From positions 1-57,332 of the forward strand of contig NZ_JACJRS010000030.1 of the NCBI RefSeq assembly GCF_014697375.1: 57,332 nt of DNA. Reading direction: 5' to 3'. The notes under the pieces were generated by a model. It saw only the letters and a program-made list of their open reading frames with translations. It ran no database searches and was not told the DNA's origin. Source of the DNA: Phormidium sp. FACHB-1136 (GTDB lineage: Bacteria > Cyanobacteriota > Cyanobacteriia > Phormidesmidales > Phormidesmidaceae). The translations under genes were made by a program, and so were the position numbers. Below, in pieces: positions 32,073-39,545 of this stretch; the stretch's first letter is position 1, and the number at the start of each line of letters is the position of its first letter.

Positions 32073-32238
32073 TATTCTCATTTATTAATCCCGGCTTAAC
32101 CTGCCTTTATTGTTAAATGGGTCAGGGTTTGGTAATATTCCTAATGACAATAGCTCTCAAAAGTATTGCGCTTTCTAGAGCCATTGTTTAAGCAGCGTCA
32201 ATCAAGCTTTGTAGCTTGGTCTTTAACCACGTTGCCCC

Positions 32239-32279
32239 AACAACTAGCCTTTTTAAAAGGTGTGAGGAGAGATAACCGA
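32239..32279 (+). promoter_or_regulatory. Duplicated porin leader with ribosome site (copy 1)
   Basis: The 41 bp before the first porin gene match those before the second (34125-34166), differing at a single short indel. It includes the strong ribosome site TGAGGAGAG and the box AACTAGCCTTTTTAA. Conservation of the leader marks the duplication edge and suggests shared regulation. Confidence 0.7.
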
Positions 32280-33767
32280 ATGTCTAAACTACTGTGGAAA
32301 GCCTTGTTAGCGGCTCCCGCTGCGGGTGTTGCCTTCGCCGTTTCCAGCGTGGCCGTGGCCGCTGAGACGGCCCCTAACCTGAGCCTAACCGTGCAGGCTG
32401 AGCCCGTGCAACTGGCTCAGATCACCAGCGTCTCTGAACTCACCGATGTATCCCCCTCCGACTGGGCCTTCCAAGCACTGCAAAGCCTGGTTGACAACTA
32501 TGGCTGTATTCAGGGCTACCCGGATCGCACCTTCCGTGGTAGCCGTGCACTGACCCGCTTCGAGTTTGCCGCTGGTCTGAACGCCTGTTTGGACGTGATG
32601 GCAGTGCTGATTTCCCAGTCTGGCATCCCCCCCGAAGAACTGGCCGCCATCCGTCGTCTGCAAGAAGAGTTCCAGGCTGAACTGGCCACCCTGCGCGGTC
32701 GTGTAGATGCTCTGGAAGCGGAAACCGCGACCCTGCGTGCCCAACAGTTCTCTACCACCACCAAACTGCGTGGTCAAGCCGATGGCACCCTCATCGCTCC
32801 CTTCAACAGCGTCAACACGGCTCCTATTGGCGGCGTTGAAGATAGCTTCAGCTTTGAAGGTCGGGCTCGTTTGAACTTTGATTCCAGCTTCACCGGACAG
32901 GATCGCCTGCGAATTCGTCTTCAAGCTGGCAGTGGTAACCGCGCCCTAAGAGCCTGGAATGGCTTGGCTAACAGCGGTGGCGCTGACTATGACGTCACCG
33001 TTGACGACTTTTTCTATCGTTTCCCTGTCGGCAATCGTGTCACCGCCACCTTGTCCGCTCGCGGTCTGCAAGGCGGTGACTGGGTGACCAGCACCATCGT
33101 TCCCTTTGATGGCCCTGCTGTTGCCGATGCTAGCGGCCCGCTGTTCTACGATGCGGGTGGTATCAGCTCCAATGCCGTGGGTGGTGGTGTCAACATCGCC
33201 TTCACCGATAGCGTTGTGCTCGATCTGGGCTACAGCTCTGCCTACGGCAATGCGGGTAACCCTGCGGTGGGTGTCTTTGACTCTACGACTCCCCAAAGCG
33301 TTATTGCTCAGTTGAACTTCGTTCCTGAAGGTCCCTTCAACGCCGCAATCGTCTACATGCTGAACAACCGCTCCTCCACCTTCGCCCTCAACAACACGGG
33401 CCTGGCTGCACCGGGCGGAAAGACCAATACCTACGCCGGTCTGGTTAGCCTTGATTTTGGTCGCTTCTTTGTGGCTGGTCATGGAGCTTACCAAGATTTT
33501 CAGGGGGGTAGCGACTTTAGCTGGACTGCTGGCGCTGGCCTAAATGACCTCTTCTTGGAAGGGTCTCAACTTGGGGTCTATGGCGGTCAACTGCCTCAGT
33601 TGGCTCGCTATCGCGAAAATCCCTGGATCATTGAAGGCTACTATGAAATTCCCTTCAATCAGTTCGTGACCTTGACCCCTGCTGTGGTTGCGGGCGATGC
33701 TGGCGTTGCGGGTGCCCCTGACAGCCGTGGCATCTGGGGTGTGATCCGCACCACCTTCCGTTTCTAA
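32280..33767 (+). CDS. SLH-domain iron-uptake porin, copy 1
   Basis: Outer-membrane porin of 495 residues in the cyanobacterial Som/iron-uptake porin (OprB-like) family. Signal peptide 1-27 (ALLAAPAAGVAFAVSSVAVAA). An SLH domain follows (VSPSDWAFQALQSLVDNYGCIQGYPDRTFRG), which binds the pyruvylated cell-wall polymer. Then a coiled coil (EEFQAELATLRGRVDALEAE) acts as a periplasmic spacer, and the rest is a beta-barrel ending in Phe (TTFRF). Solute and iron passage across the outer membrane is the expected role. Start at 32280 is set by the SD and by identity with copy 2. Equal length and high identity to copy 2. Confidence 0.95.
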   Translation: MSKLLWKALLAAPAAGVAFAVSSVAVAAETAPNLSLTVQAEPVQLAQITSVSELTDVSPSDWAFQALQSLVDNYGCIQGYPDRTFRGSRALTRFEFAAGLNACLDVMAVLISQSGIPPEELAAIRRLQEEFQAELATLRGRVDALEAETATLRAQQFSTTTKLRGQADGTLIAPFNSVNTAPIGGVEDSFSFEGRARLNFDSSFTGQDRLRIRLQAGSGNRALRAWNGLANSGGADYDVTVDDFFYRFPVGNRVTATLSARGLQGGDWVTSTIVPFDGPAVADASGPLFYDAGGISSNAVGGGVNIAFTDSVVLDLGYSSAYGNAGNPAVGVFDSTTPQSVIAQLNFVPEGPFNAAIVYMLNNRSSTFALNNTGLAAPGGKTNTYAGLVSLDFGRFFVAGHGAYQDFQGGSDFSWTAGAGLNDLFLEGSQLGVYGGQLPQLARYRENPWIIEGYYEIPFNQFVTLTPAVVAGDAGVAGAPDSRGIWGVIRTTFRF

Positions 33768-34124: not shown

Positions 34125-34166
34125 AACAACTAGCCTTTTTAATAAGGTGTGAGGAGAGATAACCGA
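34125..34166 (+). promoter_or_regulatory. Duplicated porin leader with ribosome site (copy 2)
   Basis: Same leader as at 32239-32279 with an extra base in the A/T run. Contains the TGAGGAGAG ribosome site. Confidence 0.7.
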
Positions 34167-35654
34167 ATGTCTAAACTACTGTGGAAAGCCTTGTTAGCCG
34201 CCCCTGCTGCGGGTGCTGCTTTTGCTGTTTCTAGCGTTGCCGTTGCCGCTGAGACGACCCCTAACCTGAACCTAAGCGTCCAGGCTGAGCCCATTCAACT
34301 GGCTCAGATCACCAGCGTTTCCGAATTGACCGATGTGTCCCCGTCTGACTGGGCCTTCCAGGCGCTACAAAGCCTGGTTGACAACTATGGCTGTATTCAG
34401 GGCTACCCGGATCGCACCTTTCGTGGCAGCCGTGCGCTGACCCGCTTCGAGTTTGCCGCTGGTCTGAACGCCTGTTTGGACGTGATGGCAGTGCTGATTT
34501 CCCAGTCTGGCATCCCCCCCGAAGAACTGGCCGCCATCCGTCGTCTGCAAGAAGAGTTCCAGGCTGAACTGGCCACCCTGCGCGGTCGTGTGGATGCCCT
34601 GGAAGCGGAAACCGCTACCCTGCGCGCCCAGCAGTTCTCCACCACTACCAAACTGCGTGGTCAAGCCGATGGCACCCTCATCGCTCCCTTCAACAGCCTC
34701 AATACGACTCCTATTGGCGGCGTTGAAGATAGCTTTAGCTTTGAAGGTCGGGCTCGCCTGAACTTTGACTCCAGCTTCACCGGAAGCGACCGCCTGCGAA
34801 TTCGTCTTCAAGCTGGTAGCGGAAACCCCGCCCTGGCGGCCTTTGGTAGCTTGGCTAACAGCGGCGGCGGTGCCTATGACGTTACCGTTGACGACTTTTA
34901 CTACAGCGTCCCTGTTGGTAGTCGCGTTGACGTGACCCTAGCGGCTCGCGGTATGCAAGGCGATGACTGGGTGACCAGCACCATCGTTCCCTTTGATGGC
35001 CCCGGTGTCGCTGATGCCAGTGGCCCTCAGTTCTATGATGCGGGTGGGATCAGCTCCAATGCCGTGGGTGGCGGTGTCAACGTTGCCTTCAGCGATAGCA
35101 TTGTGCTGGATTTGGGCTATAGCTCTGCCTATGGCAATGCCGGAAACCCTGCGGTGGGTGTCTTTGATTCTGCCACTCCCCAAAACGTTATTGCTCAGTT
35201 GAACTTCGTTCCTGAAGGTCCCTTCAACGCCGCAATCGTCTACATGCTGAACAACCGCTCCTCCACCTTCGCCCTCAACAACACGGGCCTGGCTGCACCG
35301 GGCGGAAAGACCAATACCTACGCCGGCCTGGTGAGCTTTGACTTTGGTCGCTTCTTTGTGGCTGGTCATGGGGCTTACCAAGACTTCCAGGGTGGGAACG
35401 ACTTTAGCTGGACCGCTGGTGCTGGCCTCAATGACCTCTTCCTGGAGGGGTCTCAGCTCGGTGTGTATGGCGGTCAACTGCCCCAGTTGGCTGGCTATCG
35501 CCAAAACCCCTGGATGATTGAGGGTTACTACGAAATCCCCTTCAACCAGTTCGTGACCTTGACCCCTGCGGTGGTTGCAGGTGACGCTGGCGTTGCGGGT
35601 GCTCCTGATAGCCGTGGCATCTGGGGTGTTATCCGTACCACCTTCCGCTTCTAG
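34167..35654 (+). CDS. SLH-domain iron-uptake porin, copy 2
   Basis: 495-residue tandem paralogue of the preceding porin, with the same order of domains: signal peptide, SLH, coiled coil and beta-barrel. Differences cluster in the barrel after residue ~210 (for example GNPALAAFGSLANSGGGAYD against GNRALRAWNGLANSGGADYD), consistent with altered loops. Other segments, such as the SLH-coiled coil DNA and a stretch of about 120 bp beginning near 35207, are almost identical at DNA level including silent sites, which suggests gene conversion. It has its own strong terminator, so each copy is probably expressed separately. Confidence 0.95.
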   Translation: MSKLLWKALLAAPAAGAAFAVSSVAVAAETTPNLNLSVQAEPIQLAQITSVSELTDVSPSDWAFQALQSLVDNYGCIQGYPDRTFRGSRALTRFEFAAGLNACLDVMAVLISQSGIPPEELAAIRRLQEEFQAELATLRGRVDALEAETATLRAQQFSTTTKLRGQADGTLIAPFNSLNTTPIGGVEDSFSFEGRARLNFDSSFTGSDRLRIRLQAGSGNPALAAFGSLANSGGGAYDVTVDDFYYSVPVGSRVDVTLAARGMQGDDWVTSTIVPFDGPGVADASGPQFYDAGGISSNAVGGGVNVAFSDSIVLDLGYSSAYGNAGNPAVGVFDSATPQNVIAQLNFVPEGPFNAAIVYMLNNRSSTFALNNTGLAAPGGKTNTYAGLVSFDFGRFFVAGHGAYQDFQGGNDFSWTAGAGLNDLFLEGSQLGVYGGQLPQLAGYRQNPWMIEGYYEIPFNQFVTLTPAVVAGDAGVAGAPDSRGIWGVIRTTFRF

Positions 35655-36923: not shown

Positions 36924-38480
36924 ATGGCTTGTTTGAAGGTTGTGGGTATGGTGTCGAGCTGGCTTATTTCAGGAACCCTAGGGACACTGGGTGCTCTGGT
37001 GGTGGTGGCTCCGGCCCAGGCTGCAACCCTGCAATATTGGTGGTTTGATGCCGAGAGGAATCAACTCGTGTTTACCACCGATGGCAACGTCCAGCCCACG
37101 GCCCAGATGCTCTCGAACCCCACCCGTATTGTGGTGGATTTGCCCAATACCCAGCTCGGCAGTGGCACCACGCGACAATCGGTGGGTGGCAACGTGCGCG
37201 AGGTGCGGGCCGGACAGTTTGATGCCCAAACCACACGGTTAGTGATTGAATTTGCGCCGGGGTATCGCCTCGATCCCCGTGCTGTGCGCGTACAAGGGGT
37301 GCGCCCCAATCAGTGGGTGGTGCAGTTGCCCGGTTCAACCCCGGAGATTGAGGGGAGTACTGCTGCCCCTGGATCAACCCCAGGCACCGAAGGCACGACT
37401 CCATCGGCGAACCAAGTCCAGGGTGGGACGGGCACTGGGGCCGACGCTACCCTGAATCGAGTGATTACCACAGGCGACGGCTTTCTGCTTCAGATGAGCG
37501 GCACCGTGGCCCAGCCCACCTTGCGCTTTTCGGGGGACGGCCCCGATGACCGAATAGCGGTGATCGACTTGCCGAACACCACCGTGGCGACGACGTTGCA
37601 ACCAGGCGACCTACCTAATTTCCGCTACAGCATTCGCACCTGGGAAATTGTGCAGCAGGACACCAGCCCTCCTAGCACCCGCATTACCCTGCGGTTAACT
37701 CCCGACAGCCCGGAATGGCGGGCCTTGCGCAATCAAAGCGGTGTGATTTTGCTGCCGCCCAGCGGGGTGCCCATTGGATCGGTTCCCGATGAGCCCCCGC
37801 CGCCCACCCCGGTCGCGGAAGTGCGCCCAACAAGCCCCATTGTCCGCCCTAATCGGCCTGTGGTGCCGCCCCCCCAACCCGCTGTGGTGCCGCCCCGGCC
37901 AGCGACTGCTCCGCCCTTGCCCAGTATTTCCAACCAGCGGGTGGTGGTGGTGATTGATCCGGGCCACGGTGGACGAGATCCAGGGGCCGTGGGGATCGGT
38001 GGGCTTCAGGAAAAGCAGGTGATCTTTCCCATGTCTCTGCGGGTGGCCGAACTCCTTGAACAGCAGGGCGTGGTGGTGGTGATGACCCGCCGCGACGACA
38101 TTACCCTAGACCTGCAAGCCCGTGTGGACATTGCCAACCGATCTGGAGGGAACATTTTTGTCAGCATCCATGCCAACGCCATCAGCATGAGTCGTCCCGA
38201 TGTGAACGGCGTGGAGACCTACTTTTCCTCAGAACGGGGACGGCGGCTGGCGGCCACCATTCAATCCAATATGCTGGCGGCAACGGGAATGCGAGATCGC
38301 GGGGTGAAGCAGGCCCGATTTTACGTCATTCGCCATACGAATATGCCCGCCGCCCTAGTCGAGGTGGGGTTTGTGACCGGGGCCGAAGATGCGCCCCGCC
38401 TCGCCGATCCGGCCTGGAGAGAAACCGCCGCCCAGGCCATTGCCCGTGGCATTTTGCAGTATATCCAGCAGGGGCTTTAA
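36924..38480 (+). CDS. AMIN-domain N-acetylmuramoyl-L-alanine amidase
   Basis: Periplasmic cell-wall hydrolase (518 residues) cutting the stem peptide from MurNAc; in filamentous cyanobacteria AmiC-type enzymes drill septal nanopores and split cells. Signal peptide 1-33 (AQA end), two AMIN domains at about 36-135 and 178-278 that localise it to peptidoglycan, a Pro-rich linker at 285-335, then Amidase_3. Zinc ligands His348 (DPGHGG), Glu363 (LQEK) and His416 (SIHANA), and catalytic Glu480 (VEVGF), are all present. It is active by sequence. The next gene, in the same direction about 100 bp on, is a LytM-like protein. Confidence 0.95.
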   Translation: MACLKVVGMVSSWLISGTLGTLGALVVVAPAQAATLQYWWFDAERNQLVFTTDGNVQPTAQMLSNPTRIVVDLPNTQLGSGTTRQSVGGNVREVRAGQFDAQTTRLVIEFAPGYRLDPRAVRVQGVRPNQWVVQLPGSTPEIEGSTAAPGSTPGTEGTTPSANQVQGGTGTGADATLNRVITTGDGFLLQMSGTVAQPTLRFSGDGPDDRIAVIDLPNTTVATTLQPGDLPNFRYSIRTWEIVQQDTSPPSTRITLRLTPDSPEWRALRNQSGVILLPPSGVPIGSVPDEPPPPTPVAEVRPTSPIVRPNRPVVPPPQPAVVPPRPATAPPLPSISNQRVVVVIDPGHGGRDPGAVGIGGLQEKQVIFPMSLRVAELLEQQGVVVVMTRRDDITLDLQARVDIANRSGGNIFVSIHANAISMSRPDVNGVETYFSSERGRRLAATIQSNMLAATGMRDRGVKQARFYVIRHTNMPAALVEVGFVTGAEDAPRLADPAWRETAAQAIARGILQYIQQGL

Positions 38481-38582
38481 GCCTCCCTGGGCCGGGGGGA
38501 TTGTCTATGATGGAAACAGGTCTGGGTGGATGGCCGACCTGCCCCACCCAAGCCCCATCGTTATCGCCCTGCGCCACGGTTC

Positions 38583-39545
38583 ATGGTCAACATCACAGGC
38601 AATTGGATGAAGGTCTGGAGGTTTCGCTCAGCTATCCTGGGCTTCTTAGGGCTAGGGATGGTCGTTAGTTTGAGTGGGGGCGGAGGGGCGAACCCCGGTC
38701 TAGCAGTAGATGCGGTCTGGATCGCTCAAACCGCCGCCCCATCGGAGGATTCTCTCTGTTCGGCCCCGGCCCTGTCTCGTTTGGTGCGTCACCGGGTGGC
38801 CGCAGGGGAAACCCTGGATACCATCGCCCAACAGTATGGGTTGTTGAGCGCTACCCTCATGGGCTTTAACCCCGCCGTGCAAGGGGGACGAGTCAGTGTT
38901 GGGCAAGAATTGGTGATTCCGCCCTACAACGGTATTCGCGTGCGCGTGGCCCCAGGCCAAACGTGGGTACAGGTGGCCCAAGCCTACGACCGTCAGGCCG
39001 ATCTGTTGTTTGAAATCAACGGCTGTGTGAGCGCCGTCCCCGCCGAAATTTTTGTACCTGGCATCAACTGGTTTCCCGGCGTGAGTACCGCCGCCAGTGC
39101 CCATAACCCGACTCCAACTCGACCCAGCCCGCTCCAAGGCTATCCCCTGCCGGAACGAGCGGAGGTGGTGGTGAATTTTGGCTGGCAGCCCGCCCCAGAT
39201 CGTAATGAAGTGGTATTTAATACCGGGGTCGCCTTGGCGGCCACCGCCACAACCCCCGTGCTGGCGGTGGGAGCGGGGACGGTGGCTTTTGTGGGGACGG
39301 ATCCGGTGTACGGCAACCTGGTGGTCGTGAACCATGCCGACGGTTTGCAAACCCGCTACGCTAACCTTACGGAAATGGCGGTAACCGTGGGACAAACGGT
39401 ATCCCAGGGGGCCAGGTTGGGACGGGTGGCGGCTAGGGACGAACGGGTGGAGTCCTACCTCTTTTTTGAAGTGCGCCTCAATTCTGACTTGGGTTGGGTG
39501 GCCCAAAACCCCCATGATCTCGTGCCTGCTATGGCCCTACGGTAG
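38583..39545 (+). CDS. LysM-LytM protein with degenerate peptidase site
   Basis: About 320 residues: an N-terminal hydrophobic segment or signal peptide, two LysM-type units (VRHRVAAGETLDTIAQQYG and VRVAPGQTWVQVAQAYD), then a C-terminal M23/LytM fold. The zinc motifs of active M23 peptidases are missing: the usual H-x-G-x-D is FNTGVALA, and HLHFEVR is YLFFEVRLN. So it should not cut peptidoglycan. In proteobacteria degenerate LytM proteins (EnvC, NlpD) switch on amidases; here it follows an AMIN amidase on the same strand. Start: ATG at 38583 or 38607, both before the hydrophobic segment. The match to a LytM fold rests on the strand pattern. Confidence 0.82.
   Translation: MVNITGNWMKVWRFRSAILGFLGLGMVVSLSGGGGANPGLAVDAVWIAQTAAPSEDSLCSAPALSRLVRHRVAAGETLDTIAQQYGLLSATLMGFNPAVQGGRVSVGQELVIPPYNGIRVRVAPGQTWVQVAQAYDRQADLLFEINGCVSAVPAEIFVPGINWFPGVSTAASAHNPTPTRPSPLQGYPLPERAEVVVNFGWQPAPDRNEVVFNTGVALAATATTPVLAVGAGTVAFVGTDPVYGNLVVVNHADGLQTRYANLTEMAVTVGQTVSQGARLGRVAARDERVESYLFFEVRLNSDLGWVAQNPHDLVPAMALR

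Follow-up and report, generated by a model that had tools for sequence, protein, structure and literature searches.

Two adjacent genes for cell-wall proteins were found on the forward strand of contig NZ_JACJRS010000030.1 of Phormidium sp. FACHB-1136, of which positions 1 to 57,332 were analysed and are referred to here as the window. The upstream gene encodes an AMIN-type amidase and the downstream gene encodes a protein with LysM and LytM domains; 45 bp separate the stop codon of the amidase gene from the listed open reading frame of the LytM gene. The features of the two genes are given in Table 1.

Table 1. Features of the amidase and LytM genes, in positions of the window
Feature	Position	Strand	Basis
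AMIN-AMIN-Amidase_3 cell-wall amidase, 518 aa, AmiC2-like	36924..38480	+	ORF, domain scan and alignment
Amidase_3 domain, without the E. coli-type regulatory segment (blocking and interaction helices)	37947..38456	+	alignment
Site of the ~46-47 extra residues of E. coli AmiA/AmiC; short here, collinear with Nostoc AmiC2 and CwlV	38208..38333	+	
TTGTCTATGATGG in the intergenic gap, candidate promoter of the LytM gene	38501..38513	+	cross-genome comparison
LysM and dead M23/LytM protein; N-terminus signal-peptide-like by eye	38526..39545	+	ORF and domain scan
LysM domain, residues 89-132	38790..38921	+	domain scan
Second LysM-like repeat, residues ~137-180, sub-threshold in Pfam	38934..39065	+	structure model
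M23/LytM domain, residues 231-320; N232, A236, N280, Y311 and F313 replace H, D, H, H and H	39216..39485	+	

Domain structures of the amidase and the LytM protein

The Pfam scan of the upstream gene product revealed an Amidase_3 domain with a score of 188.5 bits and two AMIN stretches (AMIN, 81 bits). All of the zinc residues of the amidase were present (DPGHGG, the glutamate of LQEKQ, SIHANA and VEVGF) and aligned to the same residues in the structure of AmiC2 from Nostoc punctiforme (5EMI). The amidase domains of these two proteins aligned end to end with a score of 179 bits and without a regulatory insert, although the window protein, at 518 aa, is shorter than AmiC1 and AmiC2 of PCC 7120, which have 627 aa (PMC12421839). 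EnvC takes hold of an interaction helix that, together with the blocking helix, lies within residues 151-194 of AmiA (PMC10268282). We found that the window amidase was gapless at this segment when compared with AmiC2 and CwlV, while AmiA and AmiC carry approximately 46-47 residues more, and the six Amidase_3 matches of the window genome, at 159-178 aa, are all too short to hold it. PMC8496864 describes AmiC2 and CwlV as active unaided and Nostoc AmiC2 as being without the helix. The AMIN and Amidase_3 domains, the zinc residues and the missing inhibitory helix thus fit an AmiC2-type AMIN amidase, which should be competent alone because it is without the autoinhibitory segment of the E. coli enzymes; the LytM protein would not be an EnvC-style on-switch for it. 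Additionally, two close AmiC-like paralogues (C210 and C211) were present in the window genome.

Two Pfam families matched the downstream protein, Peptidase_M23 at 78.7 bits against a cut-off of 28.7 and LysM at 37.6 bits against one of 20.9, and its second LysM-like repeat was modelled as a β-α-α-β unit with pLDDT values mostly between 69 and 84. The zinc site of an active M23 endopeptidase (H-x-x-x-D and H-x-H) was missing. In its place, the protein has FNTGVALA at residues 231-238 (39216-39239) and YLFFEV at residues 311-316 (39456-39473). The histidine of the YxH motif was also gone (TRYANL, 39351-39368), and the five site positions of HxxxD, YxH and HxH read N-A-N-Y-F instead of H-D-H-H-H. 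A sequence-only reading of this DNA had described an amidase with all zinc ligands followed by a LytM protein with replaced H-x-x-x-D and H-x-H sites. The two open reading frames lay at the coordinates given there, and both descriptions were borne out, the first by the alignment of the motifs with AmiC2 and the second by the two replaced motifs; the loss of the YxH histidine is a point that this reading did not contain. Among the 17 M23 matches of the window genome, the window protein alone was without all three zinc ligands.

The GTG at 38526 is probably not the true start of the LytM gene; the sequence suggests one of two in-frame ATG codons instead, at 38583 and 38607. No lipobox was seen by eye, the first cysteine of the protein being distant from its N-terminus. 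Two AlphaFold models, with four sequences as input, were poor (mean pLDDT 53 and 50), the LytM part of the one with the second LysM-like repeat being unusable, and because of this the groove discussed below is deduced from sequence and homology.

Several further observations concern other proteins of this genome. One 450-aa protein (L001, contig C260) looks like EnvC, with a Q/E-rich, coiled-coil-like N-terminal half, yet has an intact M23 site. Contigs C91 and C92 (5,212 and 5,226 bases) carry near-identical M23 proteins of approximately 765 aa (L004 and L005), which perhaps reflect a strain mixture or a duplicated element. In five similar M23 proteins of approximately 400 aa (L011-L015, on contigs C254, C231, C9, C107 and C64), PHLDWK replaces the usual HLH, a possible further altered zinc site in this genome. 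Within the window, two adjoining porin-like open reading frames (32166-33767 and 34149-35654), each with an S-layer-like N-terminal part by eye, were 93% identical over 501 residues, as expected of a recent tandem duplication.

Gene neighbourhood of the LytM gene

Both proteins are widespread in the class; the LytM protein had matches in 264 of the 291 genomes (E ≤ 1e-10) and the amidase query in 282 (≤ 1e-40). Of the 26 genomes of the genus, 25 had the LytM gene and all had an amidase match. The two genes were adjacent in four of these 25, namely the window genome (G000), G250, G302 and G301, where the contig carries only the 3' part of the amidase gene. A full-length orthologous amidase sits elsewhere in 14 of the 25, and the other seven were fragmented or yielded no such amidase. 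Adjacency was found in none of the 19 genomes from other genera of the family in which both genes could be placed, although in two of them, G082 and G203, the two genes lie on one contig, approximately 5 and 13 kb apart. Class-wide, the amidase occupied position -1 of the LytM gene at three of 82 loci. Conversely, each of the 20 listed genomes that lack the LytM protein retained an AMIN-amidase match.

The flanking genes differed between the window and G250/G302, and in G301 the customary downstream genes of the LytM locus were present with the amidase on the opposite side. The juxtaposition thus came about inside this genus and was carried as a unit afterwards, which is mild evidence for a link but does not make the two genes a conserved pair. 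The proposal that the two proteins are encoded as a pair was not upheld by this comparison, since the neighbours are not kept together.

Class-wide, the LytM gene is more often accompanied by a gene for an HtrA-like protease, which was found in divergent orientation at position -1 or -2 in 56 of the 82 loci and in 13 of 23 family codes. This cluster was built by single linkage, and the one member subjected to a domain scan contained Trypsin_2 and PDZ domains. The gene was absent from the other 26 loci, including the window; three of the 26 had no upstream open reading frame in the stretch examined. DUF760, ScpB-type and histone-deacetylase-fold genes were also frequent around the LytM orthologue. 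The long-kept neighbourhood (82 loci, for example L140) comprises ScpB, DUF760 and the divergent HtrA-like protease and, beyond the latter, a membrane-protein-like open reading frame, a histone-deacetylase-fold gene and a gene that is rhodanese-like by eye.

The gap between the two genes contains the block TTGTCTATGATGG, which was unchanged in G250 (L128) and G301 (L183), that is, in three of the four genomes with adjacent genes; L184 was without it. A resembling block, TTGCCTATTATAG, was similarly spaced at nine loci of the genus that have no amidase beside the LytM gene. These likenesses faintly suggest that TTGTCTATGATGG may be the LytM gene's own promoter. A scan of 38300-38800 with the sigma-70 consensus revealed no promoter, and three overlapping terminator-like matches (0.5 expected) had no clear T run.

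State of the LytM site among the orthologues

We compared the site in 128 orthologues, which are not a random sample because they were drawn from the best ~150 of the 264 matching genomes and from 30 chosen genomes, 22 of which belong to family code f23. One locus with a 100-base stretch (L115) and the same-genome duplicates L018, L045, L048, L050, L055, L168, L169 and L204 were left out before counting, and two genomes of the window's family (f1), G287 and G281, had weak LytM matches only and were kept out of the alignment. The site was intact in 34 orthologues; in 25, the YxH histidine alone was changed, to glutamine, and in 69 at least one zinc ligand was lost. What the HDQHH pattern of these 25 means for catalysis is presumably the same as in S. 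aureus LytM. The 69 members with a lost zinc ligand showed 39 different site patterns.

All 22 rows of f23 were intact and formed one clade with a support of 100, while in f1 all 45 orthologues examined were dead and formed one clade with a support of 99 in a tree of 102 rows. The dead site of f1 is not random; an aromatic residue, F or Y, replaced the last ligand in all 45 orthologues, N or S stood at the first ligand in 44 of them, and the aspartate had become A, T, G or S in all 45. We counted nine site-loss events on the resolved tree, seven when branches with an SH-aLRT support below 80 were collapsed and two when those below 95 were collapsed. The count allowed losses only, on a quick tree built without the site columns and with the root placed at f23 by choice. 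The same gene thus seems to have lost its site several separate times, in seven to nine independent events (two at the strictest support).

Ten pairs, nine of them dead-site pairs, gave dN/dS values of 0.05-0.12 (NG86, last 250 aligned codons). Because the values were this low, the LytM protein is still under purifying selection, and a pseudogene, chance or a sequencing error was ruled out by these values together with the 45 dead orthologues out of 45 in f1.

A tentative reading of this series, somewhat less likely than not, is that one conserved cyanobacterial LysM-M23 wall endopeptidase became a non-enzyme many times, in parallel and stepwise, losing the YxH histidine and then the zinc ligands, and that its site was rebuilt as an aromatic groove in f1. 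If so, the essential job of the protein would never have required catalysis, and the intact, half-lost and dead orthologues would form a natural series from enzyme to regulator, possibly under the control of the HtrA-like protease. Dead LytM domains are known regulators of wall hydrolases, and their origin is mostly visible as finished cases only. A single family with intact, half-lost and dead members would allow a direct test of whether the regulatory role preceded the loss of catalysis. The stepwise, repeated loss that this conserved cyanobacterial family appears to have undergone is the part worth following.

Possible roles and comparison with known LytM factors

We give an even chance to the window LytM protein being a DipM-like, wall-anchored LytM factor, either a regulator or a scaffold, that acts through its dead groove. 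The product of the downstream gene would be a secreted, peptidoglycan-binding pseudo-endopeptidase. Its LysM repeats would anchor it to the wall, and its LytM fold, with replaced ligands and a lining of aromatic and small residues, would provide a groove for a wall protein or wall peptide, as in Caulobacter DipM. The ancestor of the protein would have been an active LysM-M23 endopeptidase, of the kind still intact in some cyanobacteria.

It is possible, if somewhat doubtful, that the LytM protein stimulates or recruits an AmiC-type amidase, either the neighbour or a paralogue, by a route that does not involve the helix, in the manner reported of Alr3353 with AmiC1 and of DipM with AmiC. Such a route has a cyanobacterial precedent, as Alr3353 of Anabaena/Nostoc PCC 7120 is a LytM factor described as activating AmiC1 (PMC11351039, PMC6463045) and Nostoc AmiC2, which is active alone, has no helix (PMC8496864). 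The amidase-LytM unit has been kept in three genomes whose flanking genes differ, and the AmiC-like paralogues C210 and C211 would be further candidates for a partner. However, there is no conserved linkage of the LytM gene to any amidase (three of 82 loci at -1), and Alr3353, at 760 aa, is a different protein by its length (PMC12421839). We consider it unlikely that the protein is a structural one whose LysM binding is its whole function, with a dead groove that holds stem peptides or nothing. The LysM repeats are common to intact-site and dead-site members, and the replacements outside f1 are highly varied (39 patterns among 69), as though any loss were tolerated, but those in f1 are non-random at the last ligand. 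Still less probable is a partnership with the HtrA-like protease, in which the LytM protein would be a substrate, an adaptor or an envelope-stress companion in wall quality control. The two genes have long been kept as divergent neighbours, which suggests shared regulation, and the scanned protease has the Trypsin_2 and PDZ domains; yet the protease gene is missing from 26 loci including that of the window, its cluster was joined by single linkage with one member scanned, and synteny by itself is no proof of interaction.

Least probable is an EnvC/NlpD-type switch, in which the dead LytM domain docks on the neighbouring amidase and draws an inhibitory helix off the zinc as one half of a functional pair. 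In its favour, the genes are adjacent on the same strand across a 45-bp gap, adjacency recurs in G000, G250 and G302 despite differing flanks, as well as in G301, and the genome has an FtsX_ECD match. Against it, at least 14 of the 25 genus genomes have their full-length orthologous amidase away from the LytM gene, an AMIN-amidase match is kept in all 20 of the listed genomes that lack the LytM protein, the six Amidase_3 matches are too short, and such a switch on the window amidase is very unlikely because the segment of ~46-47 residues that EnvC binds and moves is missing. The tempting analogy with EnvC is corrected by this absence, and any LytM control of these amidases must therefore work differently. 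Of the sequence-only reading, the dead LytM protein beside an AmiC2-like amidase stands, and the idea of a cyanobacterial LytM factor that activates an amidase keeps its precedent in Alr3353; the paired, EnvC-style mechanism is not supported.

The DipM-like reading agrees with the comparison of the protein with known LytM factors. The best match among solved structures was the LytM domain of DipM (7QRL; E 1.9e-14), and EnvC was also matched (E 0.002-0.003). EnvC shares a degenerate LytM domain and an aromatic residue (Y) at the last-ligand position (SLYFEI), whereas it has a coiled-coil restraining arm linked to FtsX where the window protein has LysM. NlpD likewise has a degenerate LytM domain, in which the site reads N-D-H-R-H, and is a lipoprotein, in contrast to the window protein with its lack of a visible lipobox. 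The amidases of EnvC and NlpD bear blocking and interaction helices, unlike the window amidase. A literature search, which left subscription literature largely outside its reach, found no description of a LytM family of approximately 310 aa. With this protein, cyanobacteria, whose wall machinery is poorly known, would gain a second LytM factor, and a small one. Alr3353 is similar as a cyanobacterial LytM factor tied to an AMIN-amidase and differs in length (760 vs ~310 aa), by which identity of the two proteins was set aside.

The genome G031, which we take to be that of Synechococcus elongatus PCC 6301, encodes a LysM-M23 protein of 533 aa with an intact site. This protein showed 58% identity over 199 residues to L245, a 703-aa LysM-M23 protein of the window genome whose site is also intact, and 30% to the window protein. 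L245 is its counterpart, and none of the M23 matches of G011 and G031 had the window protein as best counterpart, so that the window protein is apparently not a DipM of the S. elongatus type. The DipM of S. elongatus has LysM and LytM domains, is found at the division site and is reported to hydrolyse peptidoglycan in a zymogram (PMC4015805), an activity that fits an intact-site protein.

DipM of Caulobacter crescentus offers the closest likeness. It is a soluble periplasmic protein with LysM and dead LytM domains, and its groove, which has a degenerate site, docks AmiC, SdpA and others (PMC10336132). The window protein has the same set of features, LysM repeats together with a degenerate LytM domain. 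The two are not identical at the site; according to the alignment and the same paper, DipM retains YAH and one zinc ligand, while the window protein retains none of the five site residues.
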